DNA of 37,290 bases from a virus: positions 1 through 37,290 of the IMG/VR virus record IMGVR_UViG_3300025120_000192; one strand, given 5' to 3'. A program made the translations under genes and the position numbers. The notes under the pieces are model-generated. The model was not told where the DNA came from. It did no database searches and saw only the letters and a program-made list of their open reading frames with translations. How positions within the stretch are numbered: the stretch's first letter is position 1; every line of letters starts with the position of its first letter. Below, in pieces: positions 18,325 to 37,290 of this stretch.

Positions 18325-18586
18325 AACCCTGCTTAGTATTAGTAGATGAATCGCCTCGTTTTTCCGCTGCCTCTAAATTTTCTTTCTCTTGCTCTATACG
18401 ATTAAGTATTTCTAGCGCATCGAATATAGCAAGCTTTTTAGTTGCCGCTGCATTTTTCAATCTGTCAGCAGCTAGCTCGTCTTCAGGGTCAGGCTTGATA
18501 ATATCTTCCTTCGCAACTTTAATAAGCTGCTCTACAGCTCTATGACCAGCAGATATTATTTTTTCTTTCAGCTCTTTTGCGTTCAT
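18302..18586 (-). CDS. Small helical protein preceding terL; terminase small subunit candidate
   Basis: The 94-residue product is entirely helical and charged (MNAKELKEKIISAGHRAVEQ, then KPDPEDELAADRLKNAAATK). It immediately precedes and overlaps the terminase large subunit by 23 bases, the classic place for a small terminase subunit that binds the packaging site. A short conserved protein with a DPEDELAADR-type motif in this position is familiar to me from Bacteroidota phages. No helix-turn-helix is obvious, so the assignment rests mainly on position. Its start overlaps the stop of the GroES-like gene (ATGA). Confidence 0.55.
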   Translation of the reverse strand: MNAKELKEKIISAGHRAVEQLIKVAKEDIIKPDPEDELAADRLKNAAATKKLAIFDALEILNRIEQEKENLEAAEKRGDSSTNTKQGFAERRSK

Positions 18587-19146
18587 AGTACTAGAGTTAT
18601 GTTATCAGTATACATACGATACAGCTTTTCTCCATCGACCGTAAATTCATATTCACTCTCTGGAGTAAAAGATACTTCATCGCCCTCCTTAACGCCTAAT
18701 TTATTTAATTGCTCATTACCGTATCGAAGAGTTCCAATTAAAGGTTCTTCTTTAGAAAACTTCTTAATCCAAGACTCTTTTTCTGTCGCTGGTTTCACAA
18801 AACAATATTTACCGTGAGCTGTCCAATGATTATCTTTTTTGTAAAGGAAAAACTGGTCCTGCTCGATAAAAAACAACTCATCTTTAAAATAGCTACGACC
18901 ACTCTTTTGAGCTCCGTACATATCGTAATAGTACTTAAATACGTTATGATGAACCAGTAGCACATCTCCTTCAGAGATAGGGCCTTTATAAGAAATGGGG
19001 GTGGCTTTTACAACAGCATAACGGTTAGAAAACCTGTGGTCTTCTTGAGAGGAGCTGACGATGAAGTCTACATCACCAATCTCTCTTATGTTATCGTATC
19101 GGCTATTGTTAAGGGGTTGAACTATAAAAGCGTGTGGTGACCTCAT
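18583..19146 (-). CDS. Double GroES-like (chaperonin-10 fold) protein
   Basis: The 187-residue protein appears to contain two chaperonin-10-like halves. The first (residues about 5-85) has NRYAVVKATPISYKGPISEG followed by DVLLVHHNVFK, like the GroES pattern of a Val-rich strand then I-x-x-G-D-x-V. The second (about 120-187) has YCFVKPATE, LIGTLRYGNEQLNKLGVKEG, DEVSFTPESEYEFTVDGEKL and YRMYTDNITLVL, which lines up with the GroES C-terminal part (VKVGDIVIF...EYKIDNEEVLIM.ESDILAI). It lacks an obvious IVL-type mobile loop. A role in virion assembly with the phage GroEL, or as a T4 gp31-like cap, is inference. It is coupled to the terminase genes by an ATGA overlap. Confidence 0.6.
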   Translation of the reverse strand: MRSPHAFIVQPLNNSRYDNIREIGDVDFIVSSSQEDHRFSNRYAVVKATPISYKGPISEGDVLLVHHNVFKYYYDMYGAQKSGRSYFKDELFFIEQDQFFLYKKDNHWTAHGKYCFVKPATEKESWIKKFSKEEPLIGTLRYGNEQLNKLGVKEGDEVSFTPESEYEFTVDGEKLYRMYTDNITLVL

Positions 19147-19962: not shown

Positions 19963-20427
19963 TCAATCTCTATTCTTCCTTACGGCACTTCCGAAGAAGT
20001 ATCCAAAAATGCTCAAGACAATACCTTCTGTAATTCCGATAAGGTGAATCCAGACTTCTTTGTTAGATTCTGGAATGGTTAAATAGACAATAGCGTAAAT
20101 AATAAAAGCGAAAGAGCTTAATCCAATTATACCCGTTAAGTTAAACATAAGGTCAAAATTCCTGGTTTTAGAAACTTCAACCTCTCGTTGACGGGCAGAA
20201 TCTCTGTCTGATACCTCTAACGCATAGAGCTCCTTAAGGTGGCTATGGCCTTGCTCTCTATCTTCTGGACCTAACTTAGGGTCTGTATCTATAAGTCTAC
20301 TTACAATTCCTAAAATTCCCGCGTCAGGAGCCACATCCCCTACAACCCTTAAAATATCAGGCGCCTTTGATTTAAGCCAATTCGCTAGCTTAGTATCCTT
20401 AAATTTCTTTTTTTCTTTTACGCCCAT
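19963..20427 (-). CDS. Holin-like membrane protein
   Basis: The 154-residue protein has a charged N-terminal region (1-90) and two membrane segments, about residues 93-117 (LMFNLTGIIGLSSFAFIIYA) and 126-148 (WIHLIGITEGIVLSIFGYFF), ending in a basic tail (RKNRD). The arrangement resembles the phage Holin_3TMs group. Residues 55-90 hold a charged helix (PEDREQGHSHLKELYALEVS, then DRDSARQREVEVS) of the kind seen in those holins. It overlaps the amidase gene by 10 bases, supporting a lysis role: it would permeabilise the inner membrane and release or activate the amidase. Confidence 0.7.
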   Translation of the reverse strand: MGVKEKKKFKDTKLANWLKSKAPDILRVVGDVAPDAGILGIVSRLIDTDPKLGPEDREQGHSHLKELYALEVSDRDSARQREVEVSKTRNFDLMFNLTGIIGLSSFAFIIYAIVYLTIPESNKEVWIHLIGITEGIVLSIFGYFFGSAVRKNRD

Positions 20428-20825
20428 CGGTATTCTGTAGTGGCGTCAAAAGAAGGGCAAGCTTTATTTGAAAAGTCGCTATGAGAGTAAACTTCAGCCC
20501 CACAATGAAGTCTTTTAAGAGTAGAAACAAGCATTAACAAAGAGTCTTCCTGCTCAGTAGTTCTTGTGTCCATAGGTTCGCCCTCTTTATTTAGGCCCCC
20601 CACATAACAAATCCCAATCGAGCCGTCATTATGCCCTTTACAATGAGCTCCTCTTCGAGATAAATCTCTACCATACTCAATAACGCCATCTAAATTCACT
20701 ACAAAGTGATATCCTATATCTGAAAACCCTCGAGCCTTATGCCACTTGCGAATGTCATCAGCAAAGAACTCCTGGCCTTCTTTAGTAGCGGAACAGTGAA
20801 TAATAATTTTATCGACCTCTCTCAT
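20418..20825 (-). CDS. N-acetylmuramoyl-L-alanine amidase endolysin (T7 lysozyme type)
   Basis: The 135-residue enzyme is an Amidase_2/T7 lysozyme-like protein. Zinc ligands are H10 (in KIIIHCSAT), H115 (YSHSDFS) and C123 (NKACPSFD). Catalytic positions Y39 (DIGYHFVV) and K121 match T7 Y46 and K128, with the same spacing between H, K and C. It cleaves the amide bond between muramic acid and the stem peptide to lyse the host. The length is close to T7 lysozyme (151). There is no signal peptide, so export depends on the adjacent holin-like protein. Confidence 0.92.
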   Translation of the reverse strand: MREVDKIIIHCSATKEGQEFFADDIRKWHKARGFSDIGYHFVVNLDGVIEYGRDLSRRGAHCKGHNDGSIGICYVGGLNKEGEPMDTRTTEQEDSLLMLVSTLKRLHCGAEVYSHSDFSNKACPSFDATTEYRWA

Positions 20826-20836
20826 ATTTCTTGCCC

Positions 20837-21136
20837 TTAATTACTTAGCTTGTATATACGGTCGTCAAGTTTTTGAAGAACTTGTTTTATTTCTTGTATG
20901 TCCTCTTTAAGCATAGTCACGTCTTTGCTTGTAGACATAATAGCATTGTCTATAAGCTCATCGTGTACTTGGAAATCTTTAGATGAAACCTGTGGGGCAG
21001 GCAACTCTTTGGCTTCTGCTATTTCACTCTTTAGAGTAAAGTACATTCCAATAAACGTCGACAGCACTACTCCCAAACTTATAAGGTCTTTTATCCCTAA
21101 CGATAGTTTTGTATCCTTGTCGATTTCGATTCCCAT
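20837..21136 (-). CDS. Small membrane protein with coiled coil (lysis cassette)
   Basis: The 99-residue protein has one membrane segment (about residues 16-35, DLISLGVVLSTFIGMYFTLK) followed by a periplasmic or cytosolic coiled coil (about 68-96, STSKDVTMLKEDIQEIKQVL). Located directly upstream of the amidase, it could be a second holin/antiholin or a spanin-like component. No lipobox is present, so a classical o-spanin is unlikely. The 68 bases between it and the next gene upstream (21137-21204) are AT-rich with no clear signal. Confidence 0.55.
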   Translation of the reverse strand: MGIEIDKDTKLSLGIKDLISLGVVLSTFIGMYFTLKSEIAEAKELPAPQVSSKDFQVHDELIDNAIMSTSKDVTMLKEDIQEIKQVLQKLDDRIYKLSN

Positions 21137-24834: not shown

Positions 24835-25074
24835 CTACGGTCTAATTCCATAAGTGCCAGGGAGTAAAGTATAAGTAACTTCTTTATCCACTTCTAGATA
24901 AGTAATTTTCATTTCTTTCAATACAATCATCGGCTCGTACGTAGCGTAATATAACCCATTCTCCTCTTCACATTCATTGAGGTTTCTCTGGTCAAGCTTC
25001 CATCTAAAATTAGGAATAGAAGGGTCTGTCCACGACTGATTAAAGTCTGTGTATTGATTTACTATTACTCGCAT
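24835..25074 (-). CDS. Small fibre-cluster protein, unknown
   Basis: The 79-residue protein begins MRVIVNQYTDFNQSWTDPSI and is rich in Tyr, Glu and Thr, with a beta-type C-terminus (ITYLEVDKEVTYTLLPGTYG). I do not recognise it. Its ATG overlaps the stop of the RCC1-like gene (TGATG) and it precedes the 1064-residue adhesin by 13 bases, so it is probably a small linker, cap or chaperone for the distal fibre. Confidence 0.5.
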   Translation of the reverse strand: MRVIVNQYTDFNQSWTDPSIPNFRWKLDQRNLNECEEENGLYYATYEPMIVLKEMKITYLEVDKEVTYTLLPGTYGIRP

Positions 25075-26276
25075 CAGCTAAATGATGTTACAGCCATATT
25101 GTTTTGCATAAAGCAAAAAGCTCCATTAAAAGTATTTCCAACATTTATAGCCCTTGGGGTTCCATTGTTAGGCAATCCACCACTACTTCCTATTCTTAAA
25201 AAATTAGTAACATTATTGCCTGTGGCATACAAAACACCTCCCTTTACACCCGCTGTTTCATAGTTGCTAGGGCTGATGTGTTGAGCAAATAACTTTGTCC
25301 AGTCTGTATCAGCACCTATACCCGTCATAGCATTCCAAGCAGTAGCATAGGTGTTTGCAGTTGGAGAGCCATCTAATCGACCGTTGCCAGTTCCAAAACC
25401 AGCGAATCTTAAAGAACCACCCGTCGTTATAGCTGTAGCATTAAAATAATTAGCCGATATAGAAGCTATATCCCCACCGCTATAGCCTATCGTAGGGCCA
25501 TTTATGTCAGATGTAGCCGACGTAAAATTGCTCATACTAGGGTTATTTTGTCCAGACAGATATACATCACCACCCTGTATAAGGAAAGAACGATTACCCG
25601 AAGCTGCAATCCCCGTCCAGTTGGTTCCTAAAGTGTGCTCCTGAGTAAAGCTCGTTGTGTCACCGCTTTGAGTATTTTGAATAGTTTTATAATCACTGTT
25701 AGAGCCAGCGGAAAAAACTTTACCCGAAGCCGTTAAAGCTAATGAATGGGACTGCCCGCAACTAATATCAATCCAAGTTTCAGTATTATTAAGTATAGTC
25801 CAAGTGGGCGCTGTAGTAGATGCTGGGGACCCGTGAGCGTAATCAAAACTAAAGCCTGACGAATACAAATTACCATCTTTAATGGCTAAGCTCCAGTCAT
25901 TTCCAGATGCTAGTTTCTGCCAACCCGTGCTAGAGCCAAACTGTGTCCAAGCCCCTATAACTGGTGTAAAGCCAGTGCCTGTAAATTGGCTTGTTAAAAA
26001 ATAATACCATAAAGTACCGTCTGATTTAATAGCCCAAATTTGAGGCAAATAAGAACTGTTATTTCTTGCTGTCAACTCTACTACATTGTCTGTAGTAATT
26101 TTAAAGTTAAGGTACTCATAAGTCATATCAGGACGAGTAGAAGGTACTATGCCCCCACTCATATTAACGCCTGTCACTAAGGGGACAGTAGATAGCCCCC
26201 CTCCTCCAGTTTGTGAAGTAAAAAAACCGTCTACCTGGTCTATATTACTTGTATTTTGACCTGATATACTTGCCAT
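25074..26276 (-). CDS. RCC1-like beta-propeller fibre protein
   Basis: The 400-residue protein has a variable N-terminus (1-90) and then repeated blades with the RCC1 signature: a strand ending in Gly-x-x-x-S/W-x-x-A/L followed by G-x-x-x-x-x-G. Examples are IWAIKSDGTLWYYF, KLASGNDWSLAIKDGNLYSS, DISCGQSHSLALTASGKVFS and GIAASGNRSFLIQGGDVYLS. RCC1 propellers bind proteins or other ligands; in phage fibres they likely act as receptor-binding domains. It lies between two fibre-type genes, starts 1 base from the neighbouring stop and ends in a TGATG overlap. Confidence 0.7.
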   Translation of the reverse strand: MASISGQNTSNIDQVDGFFTSQTGGGGLSTVPLVTGVNMSGGIVPSTRPDMTYEYLNFKITTDNVVELTARNNSSYLPQIWAIKSDGTLWYYFLTSQFTGTGFTPVIGAWTQFGSSTGWQKLASGNDWSLAIKDGNLYSSGFSFDYAHGSPASTTAPTWTILNNTETWIDISCGQSHSLALTASGKVFSAGSNSDYKTIQNTQSGDTTSFTQEHTLGTNWTGIAASGNRSFLIQGGDVYLSGQNNPSMSNFTSATSDINGPTIGYSGGDIASISANYFNATAITTGGSLRFAGFGTGNGRLDGSPTANTYATAWNAMTGIGADTDWTKLFAQHISPSNYETAGVKGGVLYATGNNVTNFLRIGSSGGLPNNGTPRAINVGNTFNGAFCFMQNNMAVTSFS

Positions 26277-29509: not shown

Positions 29510-30007
29510 ATGGAAAACGAAAGCAAAGCCCCCGTCAAAATCATACACTATGACATCTACGATAGGAAGCCGCCACCCAACGATTATATGAAATACTGGA
29601 GAGTCATACGTAGATGGGCTCTATCTAAATATGAACTATCAATGCCAGAACTGGAAATGCTACTGTTTTTATACTCAGAAAGCTACTTCAGTAAAGAAAC
29701 CTTCGATGAGTACAACCAACTTATAAGCTGGAATAAAAAACGCTTCTCCAACCTCCTCCGCGATGGGTGGATTGTAGTATGGCGTAAAGCCCGAAAGAAC
29801 GAAAGAACGCTCTACGAAATATCATACAAAAGCCGTAGGGTAGTAGCAAGCATATACGACAAACTAAATGGGCAAGAGTTCTCAGAAAAGTATCCCTCTA
29901 ACCCTATGTTTAAAACCCACGCACCCTATACCGATGTGGTTTACCGTAACTATATCAAGAAAATAAACCAGACTATACGACGACGACAACGTCCCGCTCA
30001 AGAATAA
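29510..30007 (+). CDS. MarR-like winged-helix DNA-binding protein
   Basis: The 165-residue product (start MENESKAPVKIIHYDIYDRK) is chosen over a longer frame from 29444 because the promoter box lies at 29479-29486. Residues 38-110 fit a winged helix: LSKYELSMPELEMLLFLYSE, a helix-turn (SKETFDEYNQLISWNKKRFS), a recognition/wing part (NLLRDGWIVVWRKARKNERT, LYEISYKSRRVVASIYDKL). MarR-type proteins use this layout. The C-terminus is very basic (KKINQTIRRRQRP). It is the only plus-strand gene in the left 34 kb and is divergent from the late genes through a palindromic promoter, so it may be the switch regulator for them. Its 3' end overlaps the GroES gene by 35 bases. Confidence 0.65.
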   Translation: MENESKAPVKIIHYDIYDRKPPPNDYMKYWRVIRRWALSKYELSMPELEMLLFLYSESYFSKETFDEYNQLISWNKKRFSNLLRDGWIVVWRKARKNERTLYEISYKSRRVVASIYDKLNGQEFSEKYPSNPMFKTHAPYTDVVYRNYIKKINQTIRRRQRPAQE

Positions 30008-30230
30008 TGGTATAGGTTTCATCGCCTATCATCATAGAATGACCTGCGTTACGGTCAAAATAAATTACATCACCGCGATTAATCGTAGACACCTCAGTGC
30101 CAGGCTCTATGACCAAAGCCTTTTTGTAACGAAAAGATTGCGCATCCTCCGAAGACAACAAAAGCCCAGAGGCCGATGTGAGCTGCTCCTCGATAGGAGT
30201 GATGACCATATATTTATTTATTGGTTTCAT
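29973..30230 (-). CDS. groES: Phage GroES co-chaperonin
   Basis: The 85-residue protein is a compact GroES. It begins MKPINKYMVITPIEEQLTSA and has a mobile-loop region SASGLLLSSEDAQSFRYKKA, where GLLL replaces the GIVL tripeptide contact for GroEL. The fold core follows with VIEPGTEVSTINRGDVIYFD and the closing TYTIILERDVVVVV. It is about ten residues shorter than the usual 95. It would cap the phage GroEL encoded upstream in the same operon. The C-terminal codons overlap antisense with the plus-strand winged-helix gene. Confidence 0.85.
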   Translation of the reverse strand: MKPINKYMVITPIEEQLTSASGLLLSSEDAQSFRYKKALVIEPGTEVSTINRGDVIYFDRNAGHSMMIGDETYTIILERDVVVVV

Positions 30231-30481
30231 ATGACAAAGATTGGTGTGTTAGTCCCCATATAGGAACCTATAACGTTATACTCAAAATACTCGATGGCCT
30301 CGTCAAGAGACATCTCCCCATCTTTCATCAAGCACTCGTGACAACTTCCTATTCTATAACAGACACGGTAAGCATCCGCAAGTGGGTCATACGATAAACC
30401 AATAATGGCATCGTCAAAACCTTCAGCAAAAAGAGAAGTCTCACCTATATCCGATAGCCACTCATTTACTAGCTTCCTCAT
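30227..30481 (-). CDS. Conserved 84-residue protein between groEL and groES
   Basis: The start is taken at ATG 30481, which lies inside the end of groEL (20-base overlap); a longer frame from 30538 would lie further inside groEL. The product reads MRKLVNEWLSDIGETSLFAE then GFDDAIIGLSYDPLADAYRV, has CYRIGSCHECLM, and ends EYFEYNVIGSYMGTNTPIFV. The motif G-F-D-D-A-I-I-G...R-V-C-Y ... E-Y-F-E-x-N-V-x-G-x-Y-x-G-x-x-T-P-I-F recurs in many phage genomes as a protein of unknown function. The stop overlaps the groES start, placing it inside the chaperonin operon. Confidence 0.7.
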   Translation of the reverse strand: MRKLVNEWLSDIGETSLFAEGFDDAIIGLSYDPLADAYRVCYRIGSCHECLMKDGEMSLDEAIEYFEYNVIGSYMGTNTPIFVI

Positions 30482-32087
30482 AAGTTCTGGCTGAAGTGAT
30501 GATTGCATTCGTAGAAAGTATAGTAGTAGCCACGGCAACTGCGTTTCGTAAAGCGCTCTTAGTAACCTTCGCAGGGTCTATAACTCCCTGACGAACCATA
30601 TTACCGTACTCTCGAGTTTTTACATTAAACCCATATCCTTTAATATCTTTTTCTAAAATATTATCGTTCACCTCTTCAAAGTCAAGACCAGCGTTAGAGA
30701 CTATCTGATGTAGTGGATACTCTAATGCAGAATAGAGCACCCGATACGCTAGAGTATGCTCTTTAGGCATAGGCTTGTTAGACATCGACCTCCTTATATA
30801 ACGACCCTGCTCCCATAAAGCAATGCCCCCTCCAGGAACAATACCCTCCATTAACGCAGAACGAACCGCGCAAACCGCGTCGTCAACCCTGTCATAACGC
30901 TCCTTTTGCTCTAGGTCGGTATTGCCGCCCACATAGATAACGCCAACCCCGCCAGCTAAACTAGCTATACGCTCTAAGAAAAAATCTTTCTCCTCCTTCT
31001 TCGAAGCGTTATCATACGCAGCACGTAACTCCTTAACACGTAAGTCAATCGCTTCTTGAGTAACACGGTTCTCATCGCGTATCAATACGCTGTGCTCACG
31101 CTTAACAACAACGCGCTTAGCTAAACCCAAATCCTCCATACGGATTAAAGACAAATCATCGCCCGTCTTTTCAGAAAAATACTTAGCACCCATAGAAAGC
31201 GCTAAATCATTCATCACCTCTTCCTGCTTCCAACCAAATTGAGGAGGGCTGATATTGCAGAACTTAACGTCGTTCTTCATAACGTTAGCCCCCATAGTAT
31301 TTAAAAAGTTTACAGAGCAAGGAGCTATCAATAGCAACTTGTGGCGTTCCGATATAACCTGCTTCAATACATTCTCTAACTGCAACGGACTGTTTATCTC
31401 TGTACCGCAAACCAAGACGTAGCAGTTCTCCAATACACACTCGTCAGTCTCGTGGTTATTTACAAATAACGACGAGGTGTAACCACGCTCCACACGCATA
31501 CCATTCGTCACCTCGTAATAAGTGTCTGGAAGTAAACTGTTCTCAACCGTTACCACCCCGTCATTGCCGACAGCTTTGTACACATCAGAAATTATCTTGC
31601 CTAACTCCTTGTCGTTATTAGCAGATATAGTCGCTACATCCAACATCTTTTTGTCAGTGAGCTTTACCGAAGAGCCAGACAAGCGCTTAATGGTTTCTTC
31701 GCTTAACACGTTAAGATAACGCAAGAAGTCCGTCTTGTTGATGTCGCTATAGTCACGGATAAGCTCCTCCGTTAAATTTATTAAAGCTTCCGTTAAGACA
31801 ATAGCGGTAGTTGTGCCGTCACCCGCTTGAGTACTCGTTCGCTCCGAAGCCTCACGCATAATACGGACCGCTAAGTTCTCAACGGCATCCATCAAATGGA
31901 TAGACTTAGCTACCGTAACACCATCTTTCGTAACCGTAATACCGTGAGTGTGTTGCTCCGATTCAATAAGAACCGTTTGTCCGCTCGGGCCTAACGTACT
32001 CTTGACAGCGTTAGACATTTTAGTTATGCCGTCTTTAAGCTTAGAACGGCCAGCATCGTCAAAGACGATATTCTTAGGAGTAAACAT
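30462..32087 (-). CDS. groEL: Phage-encoded GroEL chaperonin
   Basis: The 541-residue protein spans all three GroEL domains. The equatorial ATP site is intact: TLGPSGQTVLIES (residues 31-43), TVTKDGVTVAKSI (51-63) and GDGTTTA (89-95). The apical domain includes MRVERGYTSSLFVNNHET, matching the SPYF-region. The intermediate/equatorial return has LAGGVGVIYVGGNTDLEQKE, RVDDAVCAVRSALMEGIVPG (the catalytic Asp398 position is conserved in DDAV) and EYGNMVRQGVIDPAKVTKSA. The C-terminal GGM tail is missing (ends YEEASK). It folds proteins inside a ring cage. A TAGATTTG promoter lies 22 bases upstream. Phage chaperonins usually serve capsid folding. Confidence 0.95.
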   Translation of the reverse strand: MFTPKNIVFDDAGRSKLKDGITKMSNAVKSTLGPSGQTVLIESEQHTHGITVTKDGVTVAKSIHLMDAVENLAVRIMREASERTSTQAGDGTTTAIVLTEALINLTEELIRDYSDINKTDFLRYLNVLSEETIKRLSGSSVKLTDKKMLDVATISANNDKELGKIISDVYKAVGNDGVVTVENSLLPDTYYEVTNGMRVERGYTSSLFVNNHETDECVLENCYVLVCGTEINSPLQLENVLKQVISERHKLLLIAPCSVNFLNTMGANVMKNDVKFCNISPPQFGWKQEEVMNDLALSMGAKYFSEKTGDDLSLIRMEDLGLAKRVVVKREHSVLIRDENRVTQEAIDLRVKELRAAYDNASKKEEKDFFLERIASLAGGVGVIYVGGNTDLEQKERYDRVDDAVCAVRSALMEGIVPGGGIALWEQGRYIRRSMSNKPMPKEHTLAYRVLYSALEYPLHQIVSNAGLDFEEVNDNILEKDIKGYGFNVKTREYGNMVRQGVIDPAKVTKSALRNAVAVATTILSTNAIITSARTYEEASK

Positions 32088-32121: not shown

Positions 32122-33168
32122 TTAATCTAAAGATGGATGCCCTTCGCAAATAGTTCCATACAAAGATAATACTATTTGAAGGTCATTTACATCCACTAAA
32201 CCAGTCCCGTTGATGTCGCCAGACAGGCAACCAGGTTGCCCCCAACACGAAAGAACTGCCATTAAGTCTTGTGTGCCAATTACATAGTCGTTATTTAAAT
32301 CGCCTAAGCAAAAAGGATAGTCACCAAATAAAGAAGAGCGCTGATACAATAACATATTGTGCATACGCTCTATCTGACCAGGTGTAAAATGATGACGACA
32401 CGAATCAGGGTAATAGTCCATATGATTGTCAGCCGTATAGTCATACCAATCTTCAGGACACATCGGTGGGTCACAACTGAACTGTGGTTTAGTAGGAGGA
32501 GTGTCACACACAAAATCACCCCATACATCGCAAGACAATCCGTTATCATTACCGCAATTAGTAACCGATTGAAAAACGTGGTGTAAACCGCAGTAATGAC
32601 CCATCTCGTGAGTGATGACTTTGTTTAAAGAATTATTAGGACGTAAGTAGTCAGCACCAACCCCAAACGCAGTGTAGTTCATCCATATGCCATCACGGGC
32701 ATTGTAAGGAGAGTTGATGACATAAGACCACCCAAGGATGCCGCCACACATCTTAGGGATTATATAAATGTTGCAGTACTTAGATGTATCCCAAGATAAG
32801 TCATTCGCTAACTCAGTGTTCTGTGTGCCGTAATTAGGAAAACAAAAATTAGCATTCGATACGTAAATGTTGTGCCACGAATAATCCATCAAGTCCTTAT
32901 AGTCAATTGAAACCAAGTTGAAACTCAAAGAAGCTTCAGACATATCATCGTTCAATAAATTAATCGCCTCCTCAACATAAGACTCCTCCAAGTAACTCCC
33001 AGGAAAACTATCGCTCCAACAAACGTGAACCACTACGTCAATCTCCATAAAGTCAATCGAAGAACGATGAGATGGAAAATAATAAATAGTAGAGTCGTAT
33101 GCAGTTCCACATATGTCCTGTGAAAAAACACTCAAGGGGAACAAAAAGAAGACAACTAAATACCTCAT
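32122..33168 (-). CDS. Secreted M43-type metalloprotease with dockerin-like tail
   Basis: The 348-residue protein has an N-terminal signal peptide (MRYLVVFFLFPLSVFSQ, cleavage near residue 17) typical of Bacteroidota secreted proteins. The zinc-binding metzincin motif HExxHxxGxxH is HEMGHYCGLHH at 187-197, and the Met-turn is M250 in NHMDYYP, followed by HHFTPGQIERMH, the M43 (pappalysin/cytophagalysin) arrangement. Residues 289-342 hold two EF-hand-like dockerin repeats, GDLNNDYVIGTQDLM and GDINGTGLVDVNDLQ. Multiple Cys fit an extracellular enzyme. Nothing else in this block is secreted this way, so it looks like an accessory gene acquired from a host. It may digest surface proteins, help release, or block other phages. 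Confidence 0.85.
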   Translation of the reverse strand: MRYLVVFFLFPLSVFSQDICGTAYDSTIYYFPSHRSSIDFMEIDVVVHVCWSDSFPGSYLEESYVEEAINLLNDDMSEASLSFNLVSIDYKDLMDYSWHNIYVSNANFCFPNYGTQNTELANDLSWDTSKYCNIYIIPKMCGGILGWSYVINSPYNARDGIWMNYTAFGVGADYLRPNNSLNKVITHEMGHYCGLHHVFQSVTNCGNDNGLSCDVWGDFVCDTPPTKPQFSCDPPMCPEDWYDYTADNHMDYYPDSCRHHFTPGQIERMHNMLLYQRSSLFGDYPFCLGDLNNDYVIGTQDLMAVLSCWGQPGCLSGDINGTGLVDVNDLQIVLSLYGTICEGHPSLD

Positions 33169-33189
33169 AATAATAGCATTTTTTTTAAT

Positions 33190-33472
33190 GTGTAGAATGT
33201 AAGGTTTTTTTCCCCATATATATATATAGCAAATACTTACTCTTTTATTTTTTCTGAACTCTCATAGTAGAGAGTAAACTTAACATTCTTAACATTTCCT
33301 TCTGTAATACCAGTAAACGCTAGTTTTTTTTTGTGTAGAGTTTTTTTAAAGTCTACATTTTTGTGTAGAGAGTCTACACTTTTTGCAGATTTCAATGTTT
33401 TTTTTTACCTGATTTTTTATTGACCAAAAAATTAAAGGGAAAAAATTCGATGCAAATGAAAAAAGTCTACAC
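33190..33472. repeat. Non-coding AT-rich region with GTGTAGA/TCTACAC repeat cluster
   Basis: The 33169-33476 interval has no convincing gene. It contains GTGTAGA at 33190-33196, 33333-33339 and 33363-33369, TCTACAC at 33373-33379 and 33466-33472, and a 6/7 match (TCTACA) at 33352-33357. Positions 33363-33379 form a perfect inverted repeat GTGTAGA-GAG-TCTACAC. The surroundings are T-tracts and a (TA)n run (33217-33228). Repeated short sites in an AT-rich gap near the change of coding direction suggest an origin or an operator region; this is inference. Confidence 0.6.
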
Positions 33473-33476
33473 AGAA

Positions 33477-33500
33477 AAAGGAGGCCCCCCGACCTCCTTT
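33477..33500 (-). terminator. Intrinsic terminator of the small-gene unit (minus strand)
   Basis: Arms AAAGGAGG (33477-33484) and CCTCCTTT (33493-33500) give an 8-bp stem with an 8-base loop. On the minus transcript the stem is followed by a U run, so it ends transcription coming from 33847. Confidence 0.75.
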
Positions 33501-33858: not shown

Positions 33859-33953
33859 ATTCTTTTTTGAGATATCGAAAGCAAGGGGGCTATATATACA
33901 CATTACGCGACGCGCCTCGATATGGAAACCGATTTTTTTTTGAGGGGTGGGGG

Positions 33954-33984
33954 TCGGGATTGCCTAGCGTTGTCCCGATTTTTT
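33954..33984 (+). terminator. Terminator-like hairpin (plus strand)
   Basis: Arms TCGGGA (33954-33959) and TCCCGA (33973-33978) with a 13-base loop are followed by TTTTTT. No annotated plus-strand gene precedes it within 3.9 kb, so it may attenuate or end a short non-coding transcript. Confidence 0.4.
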
Positions 33985-34054
33985 GGCGTTTTGCCTGAGC
34001 GGTTCGAACCGCATCCGCCCTACCGATTGACTGAAGGGTACAAGCTCCGACGCA

Positions 34055-34070
34055 GTGTCGAGACCGACAC
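34055..34070. repeat. GTGTCGNNNNCGACAC palindrome, copy with AGAC spacer
   Basis: GTGTCGAGACCGACAC: 6-bp inverted arms around four bases. It lies in the non-coding strand-switch region, not directly before a gene. Confidence 0.75.
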
Positions 34071-34294
34071 AGATACGGAAGGAGGAAGGGACGCAAGGGT
34101 GCGCTCTCCCCGAAAGAGAGAGAGAGGGAGCCTTCCCTTTAACCCCGTCCGACTCGTTCCCCCTTCAAACGTTCTGGGGTCACCCTTCTGTTTCCGCTCT
34201 GTTGTTCTTTGTTGTTCCGTCCCGTTGGGGATATGGGAATGCCCCGATAGAAAAGAAAGTTGAGTATTGATTAGGATTTAGGCAAGTATTGAAC

Positions 34295-34302
34295 TATATT
34301 TG
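34295..34302 (+). promoter_or_regulatory. Promoter -7 box for the first plus-strand gene
   Basis: TATATTTG lies in the context AAGTATTGAACTATATTTGA, which resembles AAGTATTGATGTATCTTTGA at the 36685 promoter, so the two promoters share an extended element. A hairpin GGGG-GAGA-CCCC (34321-34332, GNRA-type loop) sits in the leader before ATG 34348. Confidence 0.6.
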
Positions 34303-34347
34303 AAGAATAAATAAACAAGAGGGGGAGACCCCATAATTTCAATTGCT

Positions 34348-35112
34348 ATGAAGAAGCAAACAACAAAGAAGGTCGCAACCACCGCAAAGGTTGCAAAGGA
34401 GGAAAAGTCAAATGTGTCGGCTCCGACACAATCCGCTGAGGTCAAGGCTACGCTGAAGGCGTTGAGGGCAACCGCTCCAATTGTCAAGTTGAAGCAGAGC
34501 ATCGACAAAGGCTCGGTAGACGTGTTCACCAAATCCCTGAAGTTGGGTACGTTGCTTTCGGCTCGCTTGGAAGCGTTCAACGCACCTGAGTTCAAGGCGT
34601 TCATTAAGGCTAACGGAAGTAAGATGGAGAAAGAGAAGGAGAGGCTATGGACGGCGGTTGGCATCGGTCGCTCTTACTTCTACCGCCACGCCAAGGCAGG
34701 CAAGTTCCTGATTGGTGATGCTGACTCAGGTGAGCAGTTCATTGTGTATCGGGAGGCTATGCTTGCCTTGGATGAGAAGTGCGCTCTGGACGTGGATGCT
34801 TACAACGCTTGGATGAATGCAGAGAAGCCAGAGGCATCAGTTCCCGTGAAGGAGGAGGCGGTTGCTGAGTCCGAGGGCGAGGGTGACCAGGAGTTGGAGT
34901 TCACCGACGAGGAGCTTGACAAGGTCGCTGCTCAATTCATAGTTACCGATGGAGGCTCCATCCATAGCGATGAGGACGGGAAGACGATAAGGTTCAACGG
35001 CAACGAGCAGTTGCTGAAGGCGATGTTCACGAAGTGTGCCACGGGCTTGGGCTTGGTCTGTCTATCCGTTGAGGAGTTCGAAGCGGTGTTGACATCGGGA
35101 GTCGAGGCGTAA
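34348..35112 (+). CDS. Lys/Ala-rich protein, first gene of the right module; unknown
   Basis: The 254-residue product has a very basic, Ala/Thr-rich N-terminus (MKKQTTKKVATTAKVAKEEK), then a helical segment with a possible DNA-binding look (residues about 85-125: KANGSKMEKEKERLWTAVGI, GRSYFYRHAKAGKFLIG). A strongly acidic linker (about 168-195) and a compact C-terminal domain (TIRFNGNEQLLKAMFTKCAT) follow. The GRSYFYRHAKAGKF segment resembles a helix-turn-helix with an aromatic recognition helix but I cannot name a family. Codons for VSAPTQ near residue 23-28 are a copy of the dispersed palindrome. The tRNA-like element starts eight bases after its stop. A regulator or replication protein is possible. 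Confidence 0.6.
   Translation: MKKQTTKKVATTAKVAKEEKSNVSAPTQSAEVKATLKALRATAPIVKLKQSIDKGSVDVFTKSLKLGTLLSARLEAFNAPEFKAFIKANGSKMEKEKERLWTAVGIGRSYFYRHAKAGKFLIGDADSGEQFIVYREAMLALDEKCALDVDAYNAWMNAEKPEASVPVKEEAVAESEGEGDQELEFTDEELDKVAAQFIVTDGGSIHSDEDGKTIRFNGNEQLLKAMFTKCATGLGLVCLSVEEFEAVLTSGVEA
34414..34429. repeat. GTGTCGNNNNCGACAC palindrome, coding copy
   Basis: GTGTCGGCTCCGACAC, identical to the copy in the scaffold gene. Here it encodes VSAPTQ near the N-terminus of the 254-residue protein. Confidence 0.8.
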
Positions 35113-35119
35113 GCCTTCA

Positions 35120-35164
35120 AGGGGAGGCTTGGTGCTTCGGGAGGTTCGAATCCTCTCTCCCCTT
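35120..35164 (+). ncRNA. tRNA-like acceptor/T-arm minihelix
   Basis: A 7-bp acceptor-like helix (AGGGGAG 35120-35126 with CTCCCCT 35157-35163) encloses a T-arm: stem GGAGG/CCTCT (35140-35144 with 35152-35156, one G-U pair) and the 7-base loop TTCGAAT, the consensus T-loop. The T-stem directly abuts the acceptor 3' strand as in a real tRNA. Only 13 bases (GCTTGGTGCTTCG) replace the D-arm, anticodon arm and variable region, and CTA stands where CCA would be. It may be a degraded tRNA, an attachment-site remnant or an RNA-processing signal. Confidence 0.55.
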
Positions 35165-35177
35165 CTAATTTTAATCA

Positions 35178-35193
35178 GTGTCGGAGTCGACAC
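35178..35193. repeat. GTGTCGNNNNCGACAC palindrome with conserved leader
   Basis: GTGTCGGAGTCGACAC, preceded by CCCTTCTAATTTTAATCA and followed by AAAAACCAATCAGATATG, where the last ATG (35209) starts the next gene. The arrangement recurs at 35670. Confidence 0.85.
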
Positions 35194-35208
35194 AAAAACC
35201 AATCAGAT

Positions 35209-35592
35209 ATGAGACGAGATACTAACAAGGGTGTTCGGGATTTCTCGGGGAAGATAGCCTTTTGGACGGAGCAGTTGGAACTTGCCAAGAGTGGTGAGGG
35301 TCGTTATTCGGTCGAGCGAGCGAAGGAGTCGTTGGCGTACTTCAGGGGTCGGCAGGCTAACGTGGACGCTCCTTCTGTCCCACGTCCTGATGGGGATGAT
35401 GCGAAGGCTCGGGCTATAGCGAACTGCAAGGCTAGGTTCGAGGGTATGAGCGAGTCGGAGCGGTTATGGGAGGCTAACAAGTTCATCAACGATGCTTGCT
35501 CAAAGGGTTTGGGAGTGGCTACTGCGATGAGTTTCTTAAAGGAGTGCGAGGTGATGAGTGACACGGAGTTAGCGCATAGCATTATGTTCTAG
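35209..35592 (+). CDS. Hypothetical helical protein of the right module
   Basis: The 127-residue product begins MRRDTNKGVRDFSGKIAFWT. It has helical segments with regular charge (EQLELAKSGEGRYSVERAKE, SLAYFRGRQANVD) and a C-terminal helix pair (SESERLWEANKFINDACSKG, AMSFLKECEVMSDTELAHSI). No known domain is recognised. It starts 15 bases after a GTGTCG palindrome and follows the tRNA-like element. Codon choice (GAG, AAG, GCG, TTG) is more GC-rich than in the virion genes, like its neighbours in this module. Confidence 0.55.
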   Translation: MRRDTNKGVRDFSGKIAFWTEQLELAKSGEGRYSVERAKESLAYFRGRQANVDAPSVPRPDGDDAKARAIANCKARFEGMSESERLWEANKFINDACSKGLGVATAMSFLKECEVMSDTELAHSIMF

Positions 35593-35599
35593 GGGGGGC

Positions 35600-35669
35600 G
35601 TGGGTGTTAGGGGTGGCTCAAGTGAGCGTCACAAGGCTTCGCGGTCTTGCACCCTTCTAATTTAAACCT
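35600..35669 (+). other. Structured intergenic segment
   Basis: Between two genes, the sequence can pair GGGTGT with GCACCC over about 40 bases, enclosing a GCTC-AAGT-GAGC hairpin and a CAAG...CTTG stem. It ends with CCCTTCTAATTTAAACC, nearly the same tail as after the tRNA-like element (CCCTTCTAATTTTAATC), just before the next palindrome. It may be a diverged version of that element. Confidence 0.4.
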
Positions 35670-35685
35670 GTGTCGGGGTCGACAC
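35670..35685. repeat. GTGTCGNNNNCGACAC palindrome with conserved leader
   Basis: GTGTCGGGGTCGACAC followed by AAAAAACCAATTCTATG; the final ATG (35700) starts the next gene. The palindrome itself opens an in-frame GTG reading, but the ATG is preferred. Confidence 0.85.
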
Positions 35686-35699
35686 AAAAAACCAATTCT

Positions 35700-35891
35700 A
35701 TGGACAGAAATGAAGCTATTGATGAGGCGGTGAACATCTTAATGGATTATCACTTGCGCCCACACTTCCTCCTTGAGGATACCGAATCAGACATAGACGA
35801 TGAAATCTACTCACACCTACACAAGGAGGTGAAGAGTTTAATTGTCATAACAATGGCAGAATTTAAGGGGTACTATTTGCTCAAGAATTAA
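35700..35891 (+). CDS. Small acidic protein of the right module
   Basis: The 63-residue product starts MDRNEAIDEAVNILMDYHLR, has a strongly acidic middle (EDTESDIDDEIYSHLHKEVK) and a hydrophobic helix (SLIVITMAEFKGYYLLKN). The start at ATG 35700 is chosen because it follows the palindrome plus ACAAAAAACCAAT leader exactly as in the neighbouring gene; an in-frame GTG at 35670 inside the palindrome is possible but less likely. Its base composition is more AT-rich than the flanking genes. Function unknown. Confidence 0.55.
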   Translation: MDRNEAIDEAVNILMDYHLRPHFLLEDTESDIDDEIYSHLHKEVKSLIVITMAEFKGYYLLKN

Positions 35892-35923
35892 ACGAAGACT
35901 CTTTAACACAAAAACCAATTGAT

Positions 35924-36223
35924 ATGGTACGCAGATACAAAGAAGATTTCCCCGACGGGGTACGGGAGTGGGAGGTAAGGCTTATTGATTCTACTCACGT
36001 TCAGCGCACGTTGTTGAGCGTAGATGGGAAGCCAACGGATTTGAATCCGTGTTGGACGTGGCACGTAGGCGAGTTCAAAGGAGCGAGGGGCAATCTGGCT
36101 GAAATAGTTCGTTGGTTGCGCAATGACTACCGCTCTTCGGGGATGGGGTGGATAAAGTACAAGGAGTTGCACGATAGCGAGATGAGCACTCCTGACTTGG
36201 AGGATTACACACCAAACTACTGA
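35924..36223 (+). CDS. Hypothetical protein, right module
   Basis: The 99-residue product begins MVRRYKEDFPDGVREWEVRL and contains DSTHVQRTLLSVDGKPTDLN then CWTWHVGEFKGARGNLAEIV. The mix of Trp, His and Asp/Glu and the central beta-type segment suggest a small folded domain, but none is recognised. The leader retains ACACAAAAACCAATTGATATG while the palindrome in front of it is missing, so the leader and palindrome are separable. A second gene follows 5 bases downstream. Confidence 0.55.
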   Translation: MVRRYKEDFPDGVREWEVRLIDSTHVQRTLLSVDGKPTDLNPCWTWHVGEFKGARGNLAEIVRWLRNDYRSSGMGWIKYKELHDSEMSTPDLEDYTPNY

Positions 36224-36228
36224 GCGAT

Positions 36229-36549
36229 ATGTGGCTAGTATACACGAAACTATATAGGGGTGACGGATGGGCAACTGAGCAAAAGGAACTGCCGTTGCCT
36301 TTATCGGAGACCCACCGATGGGCAAAGCGAGAGGGTGTTGTTGCTTGCATTATTTACGATGAGCGCGAGGTGTTGTGGATGGACGCGAACGAGGAAGAGG
36401 ATACTGCGTTGGAGATAGCGAGGGATGTTGGTCTTGCTGAGGATATGGTGTTGCGTTGGTTTGAGAGAAAAGAATCGGAGTCGGAGTATGGTGATGACGA
36501 GCGAGGGTGTGATGAGTATCACAGGTTGAAGGATGACCTGTGGTTCTGA
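36229..36549 (+). CDS. Hypothetical acidic protein, right module
   Basis: The 106-residue product begins MWLVYTKLYRGDGWATEQKE, continues with a beta-type segment (VVACIIYDEREVLWMDANEE) and an acidic helix (EDTALEIARDVGLAEDMVLR), and ends in a highly acidic tail (ESESEYGDDERGCDEYHRLK). No domain is recognised. It is 5 bases after the previous gene, so the two are probably one transcript. Three hairpins follow its stop. A negative charge this strong is seen in DNA-mimic proteins, but that is only a suggestion. Confidence 0.55.
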   Translation: MWLVYTKLYRGDGWATEQKELPLPLSETHRWAKREGVVACIIYDEREVLWMDANEEEDTALEIARDVGLAEDMVLRWFERKESESEYGDDERGCDEYHRLKDDLWF

Positions 36550-36550
36550 C

Positions 36551-36603
36551 TGCCCATTTGGGGCGAAAAATGCCCATTATGGGCAATCCGCCAAAATGGC
36601 GGA
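36551..36603 (+). other. Tandem hairpins after the 106-residue gene
   Basis: The segment holds TGCCCATTTGGGGCG (36551-36565, partial stem), TGCCCATTATGGGCA (36571-36585, perfect 5-7 bp stem) and TCCGCCAAAATGGCGGA (36587-36603, perfect 7-bp stem with AAA loop). TGCCCATT is repeated directly. There is no U run, so classical termination is unlikely; processing, stability or protein binding are alternatives. Confidence 0.55.
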
Positions 36604-36624
36604 ATTCTTCCCAAGATGTGCAAA

Positions 36625-36640
36625 GTGTCGGAATCGACAC
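36625..36640. repeat. GTGTCGNNNNCGACAC palindrome
   Basis: GTGTCGGAATCGACAC followed by an A/G-rich leader (AAAAGAAAAGAGAGAAATG). The ATG opens only a 15-codon frame (36657-36704), and the promoter of the next gene lies inside it. Confidence 0.8.
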
Positions 36641-36660
36641 AAAAGAAAAGAGAGAAATGA

Positions 36661-36692
36661 TTTGGAATTACGGAAGTATTGATGTATCTTTG
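36661..36692 (+). promoter_or_regulatory. Perfect Bacteroidota-type promoter (TTTG-N20-TATCTTTG)
   Basis: TTTG at 36661-36664, a 20-base spacer and TATCTTTG at 36685-36692 match the primary sigma consensus of Bacteroidota exactly. The start codon 36724 is 31 bases downstream. The flanking AAGTATTGA element is shared with the 34295 promoter. Confidence 0.8.
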
Positions 36693-36723
36693 ATAAAGAA
36701 TTAAACGACTAAATAAAAACGCT

Positions 36724-37047
36724 ATGAAAGAGCAACTAGTAATCGATTGGAAGGAGACGCTTCCTTATGTGAGTATGAAGACTGCATACGACTCTGTGTT
36801 GAGAGAGAACACCGATGTGGTGATGAGCGTACAGATAGGCATTGACCCTGACCATACGTATGGGGGATGGTACGAGACGTACGACGAGGAGACGGGCGGA
36901 GGTGATTTCTACGCGGGCGGAGTGCTTGAGATAACGTGGGATGCTGAGACGGGTCAGCCGTGGCTGAACGGGTATGATGGGTGCTTTGAGTTGCCTGACT
37001 ACATCGTGGCTAAGTTGGTAGAGAATGGAGTGAAAGACAATCTGTGA
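36724..37047 (+). CDS. Hypothetical protein, right module
   Basis: The 107-residue product begins MKEQLVIDWKETLPYVSMKT and has an aromatic acidic middle (DPDHTYGGWYETYDEETGGG, then DFYAGGVLEITWDAETGQPW) and a C-terminal helix (LPDYIVAKLVENGVKDNL). It is notable for Asp/Glu/Tyr/Trp/Gly content and few basic residues. No domain is recognised. It has the best promoter in the window directly upstream, so it is likely expressed early by unmodified host RNA polymerase. Its leader (AAACGACTAAATAAAAACGCTATG) has no Shine-Dalgarno sequence. Confidence 0.6.
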   Translation: MKEQLVIDWKETLPYVSMKTAYDSVLRENTDVVMSVQIGIDPDHTYGGWYETYDEETGGGDFYAGGVLEITWDAETGQPWLNGYDGCFELPDYIVAKLVENGVKDNL

Positions 37048-37073
37048 ATCAAATCAGTGTGGCTTCGGCACGT

Positions 37074-37117
37074 TATCGTACCCAAAAAGATATGGTATCG
37101 TACCCAAAAAGATATGG
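37074..37117. repeat. 22-bp tandem direct repeat
   Basis: Two exact copies of TATCGTACCCAAAAAGATAT plus GG (37074-37095 and 37096-37117) are followed by a third TATCG that merges into the GTGTCG palindrome. Each copy carries an ATG; the one at 37092 is in frame with the next gene. Confidence 0.85.
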
Positions 37118-37121
37118 TATC

Positions 37122-37137
37122 GTGTCGGAGCCGACAC
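37122..37137. repeat. GTGTCGNNNNCGACAC palindrome with A-rich leader
   Basis: GTGTCGGAGCCGACAC followed by AAAAATCAAGTGAAATG, with the ATG (37152) starting the last gene. It is the reverse complement of the copies at 13458 and 34414. It lies in frame in an extended reading from 37092, encoding VSEPTQ. Confidence 0.85.
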
Positions 37138-37151
37138 AAAAATCAAGTGAA

Positions 37152-37290
37152 ATGAATAAATACCCTCTAATTAATGACGCAGGTGTCTTTGTAGGTACTT
37201 CTATGCAATGGGACATACGTGATGTCGAAAGATTAACAGGACAAACGGGCATCACCCTGAGCGAGCAAGACCTGAAGAAGGTTCTTACAA
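37152..37290 (+). CDS. Hypothetical protein, N-terminal fragment at the right edge
   Basis: The first 46 residues are MNKYPLINDAGVFVGTSMQW, then DIRDVERLTGQTGITLSEQD and LKKVLT, continuing off the window. The start at 37152 follows the palindrome/A-rich leader at the same distance as in the other genes. An in-frame ATG at 37092 would add 20 residues translated from the direct repeat and palindrome and is considered less likely. No family is recognised. Confidence 0.5.
   Translation, partial: MNKYPLINDAGVFVGTSMQWDIRDVERLTGQTGITLSEQDLKKVLT

Follow-up and report, generated by a model that had tools for sequence, protein, structure and literature searches.

A phage-specific clade of predicted exported M43 metalloproteases, encoded beside lysis genes in most relatives

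A metalloprotease gene of secreted type, lying beside groEL in a phage genome, raises the question of whether such a gene is an isolated oddity, as a preliminary description of this locus supposed, or an established component of phage genomes; and, if the latter, what the phage would do with it. The window, meaning the whole stretch of DNA that was analysed, is a 37,290-base virus record in its own right. The gene occupies positions 32122..33168 (minus strand), where it starts with ATG, runs in one frame of 348 aa and heads a leftward, groEL-led unit. Its product scores 64 bits with Pfam Peptidase_M43 (PF05572), for which the cut-off is 23 (E = 1.9e-17). The zinc-binding motif HEMGHYCGLHH (residues 187-197; 32578..32610, minus strand) and the Met-turn NHMDY (residues 248-252; 32413..32427, minus strand) are invariant in an alignment of 16 viral relatives. 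As first described, the protein is a member of the M43 (pappalysin) family with intact catalytic residues, and it is predicted to be proteolytic; in M43B enzymes the activity is Xaa-Arg/Lys cleavage.

The signal peptide comprises residues 1-16 (33121..33168, minus strand), with a predicted cleavage, read from the sequence, between VFS and Q17. By inspection, the leader MRYLVVFFLFPLSVFS is followed by QDICG, which puts Gln (Q17) at +1, and in the intact viral relatives, too, a small residue and then Q come after a hydrophobic leader. Under the Bacteroidetes Q-rule (PMC5837995), Gln is the first residue past the signal peptide, and the pattern that this rule predicts for Sec/SPI export is present in the window protein as well as in the intact viral relatives. 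The earlier claim that a phage carries an exported M43 enzyme therefore holds, with export predicted from the leader and the Q pattern. Searches of the window for type A or type B T9SS sorting domains (TIGR04183 and TIGR04131) gave no match. Near the C terminus (residues 287-342; 32143..32310, minus strand), the repeats CLGDLNNDYVIGTQDLMAVLSCWG and LSGDINGTGLVDVNDLQIVLSLYG constitute an EF-hand pair with dockerin resemblance. In the window protein, both Pfam models score under their cut-offs (Dockerin_1, 18.7 bits against 22.9; EF-hand_6, 21.7 bits against 25) and NCBIfam dockerin_GC falls short of a match; the family profile nevertheless matches a dockerin chain of known structure (2y3n_B, E = 0.0016). 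Thus the pair of repeats previously noted is present, and its assignment as dockerin is below threshold. Because the repeats score under the Pfam cut-offs, the idea that the window protein docks to a cohesin is a weak one.

An AlphaFold2 model of the window protein built on 91 aligned relatives, which replaced a 16-row model with a pLDDT of 55, reached a pLDDT of 80.8 and a pTM of 0.81. The profile of the phage M43 family matches mirolysin and ulilysin, and the top PDB matches to the model all belong to the pappalysin family (Foldseek E of about 1e-12 to 1e-11). The model superimposes on mature mirolysin (6r7w) with Z = 22.6 and an rmsd of 2.4 over 220 residues, and scores Z = 22.5 against promirolysin, 22.5 against proulilysin and about 20 against PAPP-A; for metzincins beyond the pappalysins, Z falls to 13.5. 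A matrixin of Maribacter phage Colly_1 was among the matches in the structure comparison with viral models. Mirolysin is a zymogen, the latency of which is held by Cys23, the fourth residue past the signal peptide, in Q20-R-T-C-G (PMC8259862). The N terminus of the mature phage protein reads Q17-D-I-C-G, and its Cys20 (33109..33111, minus strand; QDICG here, QRTCG in promirolysin) is invariant in the alignment of viral relatives (A1). Superposition of the model on promirolysin (6r7v) begins by pairing residue 20 of the model with residue 23 of the chain, at a model confidence of less than 50. Because the model is uncertain in that region, a cysteine switch at Cys20 is probable rather than demonstrated.

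The rest of the window is that of a phage: it encodes a P22-like portal, a large terminase (phrog_6681), virion proteins, GroES, GroEL and an amidase endolysin. Isolated phages that have related portals come from hosts in Flavobacterium, Cellulophaga, Tenacibaculum and Maribacter, so the host of this phage is likely to belong to the Bacteroidota. The phage GroEL gene (30462..32087, minus strand; phrog_5725, E = 4e-130) lies directly downstream of the M43 gene across a gap of 34 bp. A hairpin resembling an intrinsic terminator (33477..33500, minus strand; consensus match only) may end the preceding unit, and the M43 gene would therefore begin its own. The AT-rich interval before the M43 gene (33182-33480) contains repeated TGTAGA/TCTACA, direct and inverted, as possible operator or phage promoter sites. 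Elsewhere in the window there are two GroES-like genes, one far from groEL (18583-19146; phrog_13932) and a short one soon past it (29973-30230), the homologue of which in MW202828 is annotated as a chaperonin 10 kDa subunit. An RCC1-repeat (beta-propeller) protein is encoded among the virion and tail genes (25074-26276). From about 33900 to 37290 the coding strand switches, GC content jumps from 0.36 to about 0.50 and GC skew is reversed; the rightward open reading frames tested there had no PHROG match.

The M43-groEL junction also occurs in six other phage contigs (L002-L006 and L010), making seven with the window. This rules out a chimeric assembly at 32-33.2 kb, and the placement of the gene beside groEL in a phage genome is thus confirmed. 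A scan of groEL loci from a single sequence gave 3 loci, and an alignment-based repeat was used instead: M43 is present in 1 of the 52 groEL phage loci with upstream DNA, namely L143, which is on the same contig as L002. MW202828, the closest named genome (portal 73% identical), has no M43 gene. The gene is therefore optional within the groEL lineage.

A scan of IMG/VR with the window protein alone recovered 56 viral loci. In our most careful tree, 43 viral sequences lie on one side of a branch with support of 100/98 and the bacterial M43s lie on the other; a quick tree with 80 bacterial rows also sets the viral copies apart. In a wider tree, viral groups A, B, C and D form one clade (support 100/99). 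Values of dN/dS within the family are 0.05-0.12 for unsaturated pairs, indicating strong purifying selection. Given the separate viral clade and the low dN/dS, M43 is an old and maintained phage gene. The copy in the window is accordingly one member of a widespread phage-specific family, neither an isolated curiosity nor nested among bacterial M43 proteases, and the depth of the viral clade rules out recent capture from a bacterium. A single clade of groEL-linked copies received AU P values of 0.077 in one tree and 0.018 in the wider tree. Nesting of the lysis-linked copies of L007 and L008 within the groEL-linked group suggests that the gene has changed place between groEL and lysis positions. 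Group D, which came from a scan based on holins, joins the viral clade; group E is placed with bacterial M43s, which suggests a second M43 capture at the same holin locus. A T9SS tail on the group C proteins was considered and rejected: their ends resemble the latter half of a type A tail, and NCBIfam and Pfam give no support. Among 50,697 phage records, we found no annotated isolate record with the family, and the only match was an unannotated faecal scaffold (MT837139).

Beyond the groEL lineage, almost all relatives with sufficient flanking DNA are encoded beside lysis genes. In 41 of 57 viral loci, M43 has a lysis gene (for a holin, an M15 endolysin, an amidase or a short membrane-anchored coiled-coil protein) within 4 kb, as found with search models seeded from the same loci and named independently by PHROGs. 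GroEL lies within 4 kb in 6 of the 57, and 10 have neither, all of which except faecal scaffold L060 end at a contig edge on the relevant side. The same search around 80 bacterial M43 loci found none of these lysis genes and no groEL. The neighbours match holins phrog_3427 (E = 5e-21; present in 12 of 24 whole records) and phrog_1296 (E = 1e-4), endolysin phrog_894 (E = 2e-29), amidase phrog_822 (E = 3e-39) and, weakly, the Rz-like phrog_214. In the holin-based scan, which shares some contigs with the M43-based scan, M43 is within 3.2 kb in 42 of the 77 holin loci with enough DNA. It is on the holin strand in 38 of these 42 and in the opposite direction in 4; at 20 of the 38 same-strand loci its start overlaps the holin stop by 4 bases. 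The groEL neighbour emphasized initially is real for the window and peculiar to one sub-lineage, the usual neighbours being holins and endolysins. In-frame TGA codons, raised by a genome search report for the holins of L007, L008 and L050, were dismissed, as the holin frames are intact. Directly before the holin, L007 (1223-9535) and L026 (175-9330) encode single proteins of about 2,770-3,050 aa, and in this phage group there is, in addition, a ribonucleotide reductase-like gene that faces M43.

The lysis cassette of the window consists of a short membrane-anchored coiled-coil protein, holin/spanin-like (20837..21136, minus strand; phrog_19043), upstream of an N-acetylmuramoyl amidase endolysin (20418..20825, minus strand; phrog_822, E = 5e-56), and a holin-like protein (19963..20427, minus strand), homologues of which directly precede M43 in other phages and match the phrog_3427 holin (E = 5e-21). 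The corresponding coiled-coil proteins of L047 and L051 match the phrog_19043 family weakly. There is no M43 in this cassette; the gene is 12 kb away and adjoins neither holin nor endolysin in the window genome. Because it heads the groEL unit, the link to lysis for this phage comes from its homologues.

Holin loci without M43 often have other signal-peptide proteins in the same slot, which is also occupied by T9SS-sorted, phosphoesterase-like and unknown genes. Across 45 searched records, T9SS type A tails exceed the curated cut-off in 4 and type B tails in 9. Directly past the holin, L254 (5429-8592), L255 (5432-8921), L276 (5429-7963) and L271 (5539-7608) encode proteins of 690-840 aa with GCTDP..NYNP repeats and a T9SS type A domain, apparently destined for the T9SS of the host; in L254 and L255 this gene is followed by one for an exported, possibly beta-barrel protein of roughly 350 aa. 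A type B T9SS protein of 350-380 aa adjoins M43 in L258 (8481-9629), L265 (5783-6832), L292 (6067-7119) and L293, and is perhaps a partner or anchor of the protease.

The proximity of lysis genes in relatives suggests that the protease helps phages to leave or strip their hosts, and, among the exit, surface stripping and phage exclusion originally proposed, the position of M43 among lysis genes favours exit. We give about even chances to a role in lysis or release, in which M43 is a Sec-exported zymogen, made late, that acts on envelope or surface proteins around lysis. Its synthesis would coincide with that of virion and lysis proteins; the host Sec system would carry it across the inner membrane and signal peptidase I would cut before Gln17. 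Cys20, bound to the catalytic zinc, would keep the enzyme latent as a cysteine switch until autolysis or the opening of the envelope released it. The active protease would then cleave envelope or surface proteins of a Bacteroidota-type host, aiding the break-up of the cell and the freeing of virions from debris. A broader version is more tentative: a large group of Bacteroidota phages would use a dedicated exported metalloprotease zymogen for lysis, as an outer-layer step complementing or replacing a spanin, and would have acquired it two or more times at the one holin locus. Several observations count against the lysis reading: the 12 kb between M43 and the cassette in the window, the lack of M43 in the nearest groEL-phage relatives (for example, MW202828), the 4 of 42 holin loci at which M43 is in the opposite direction, and the low confidence of the model in the switch region.

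The position behind the holin also admits other proteins, and so may accommodate accessory genes rather than a lysis function. One such accessory role, as a moron, would be that of a digestive exoprotein, released by the host or in the lysate for nutrition, competition or interaction with grazers, so that proximity to the holin would provide only late expression and release. The variable content of the slot and the optional presence of M43 in the groEL lineage fit this explanation, as do the variable phage-encoded T9SS cargo enzymes described in Cryophage (PMC7468147) and a secreted C10 protease gene on a Bacteroides fragilis prophage (PMC2873492). It is hard to reconcile with a deep phage-only clade, strong purifying selection and the many phages in which M43 overlaps the holin by 4 bases; signs of lysogeny were not seen in the window, which is a fragment. 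We consider it rather improbable. Slightly ahead of it, and still unlikely, is the destruction of receptors: by trimming outer-membrane and surface proteins, the protease would prevent virions from binding to debris and other phages from adsorbing. The export signal and lysis-linked position are as expected for such a function, and in other phages of the set this slot is filled by T9SS-sorted proteins, which are presumably bound to the surface; yet nothing in the sequence indicates a particular substrate, and exclusion would usually need earlier expression.

The two remaining explanations fare much worse. M43 and the virion genes share a strand, as would suit a virion-associated protease for entry or virion maturation, but the signal peptide and Q-rule site of intact relatives, the many conserved Cys residues with a probable cysteine switch, and the location of relatives' M43 genes beside lysis rather than tail genes make that very improbable. 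M43 proteases are common in Bacteroidota, and a bacterial gene could in principle have entered the record by misassembly, or the contigs could be mis-binned bacterial DNA; with a junction common to seven groEL-lineage phage contigs, window included, and a viral clade separate from 80 bacterial copies, the probability of this is negligible.

Membership of the M43 family is known ground, and a phage-only M43 clade tied to lysis cassettes appears to be new; a search of the open-licence literature found no report of a phage M43 protease, which is weak evidence of absence. A conserved secreted protease confined to phages, and adjoining the holin in dozens of them, would bring a further class of enzyme into lysis or release in Bacteroidota. 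Such phages would use host routes to export their own proteins, namely Sec with the Q-rule and probably, in sister phages, T9SS, and the remodelling of host surfaces during infection becomes a testable question.

Phage lysis is described in terms of holin, endolysin and spanin. The M43 homologues belong to such cassettes by position and by overlapping the holin by 4 bases; proteases are not among the standard components, however, and the window M43 lies outside its cassette. A survey reported only unimolecular spanins in Bacteroidetes phages (PMC12596118). Mirolysin of Tannerella forsythia (M43B; 6r7u, 6r7v and 6r7w) shares the fold, zinc motif, Met-turn and QxxCG past the signal peptide, at 24% identity, and the model, in its low-confidence N-terminal part, puts Cys20 over Cys23; mirolysin serves bacterial virulence and carries a T9SS tail (PMC8259862), whereas the phage protein has no recognized T9SS tail and has a dockerin-like EF-hand pair. 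Ulilysin of Methanosarcina acetivorans (M43; 2cki and 8cdb) is similar in its catalytic fold (Z = 22.4) and, probably, its zymogen form, but is archaeal, comes from outside a phage context and does not match the C-terminal repeats. The T9SS cargo of Cryophage resembles the phage M43 in being encoded by phages and exported by a Bacteroidota host; it comprises type A-sorted glycoside hydrolases, together with a PA14 protein, encoded in variable islands, and the available part of that account mentions neither M43 nor a link to lysis cassettes (PMC7468147). Bfp3, a C10 enzyme on the B. fragilis prophage Bfgi2, is likewise a secreted-type protease on a Bacteroidota phage, but it is a cysteine protease and prophage cargo (PMC2873492).
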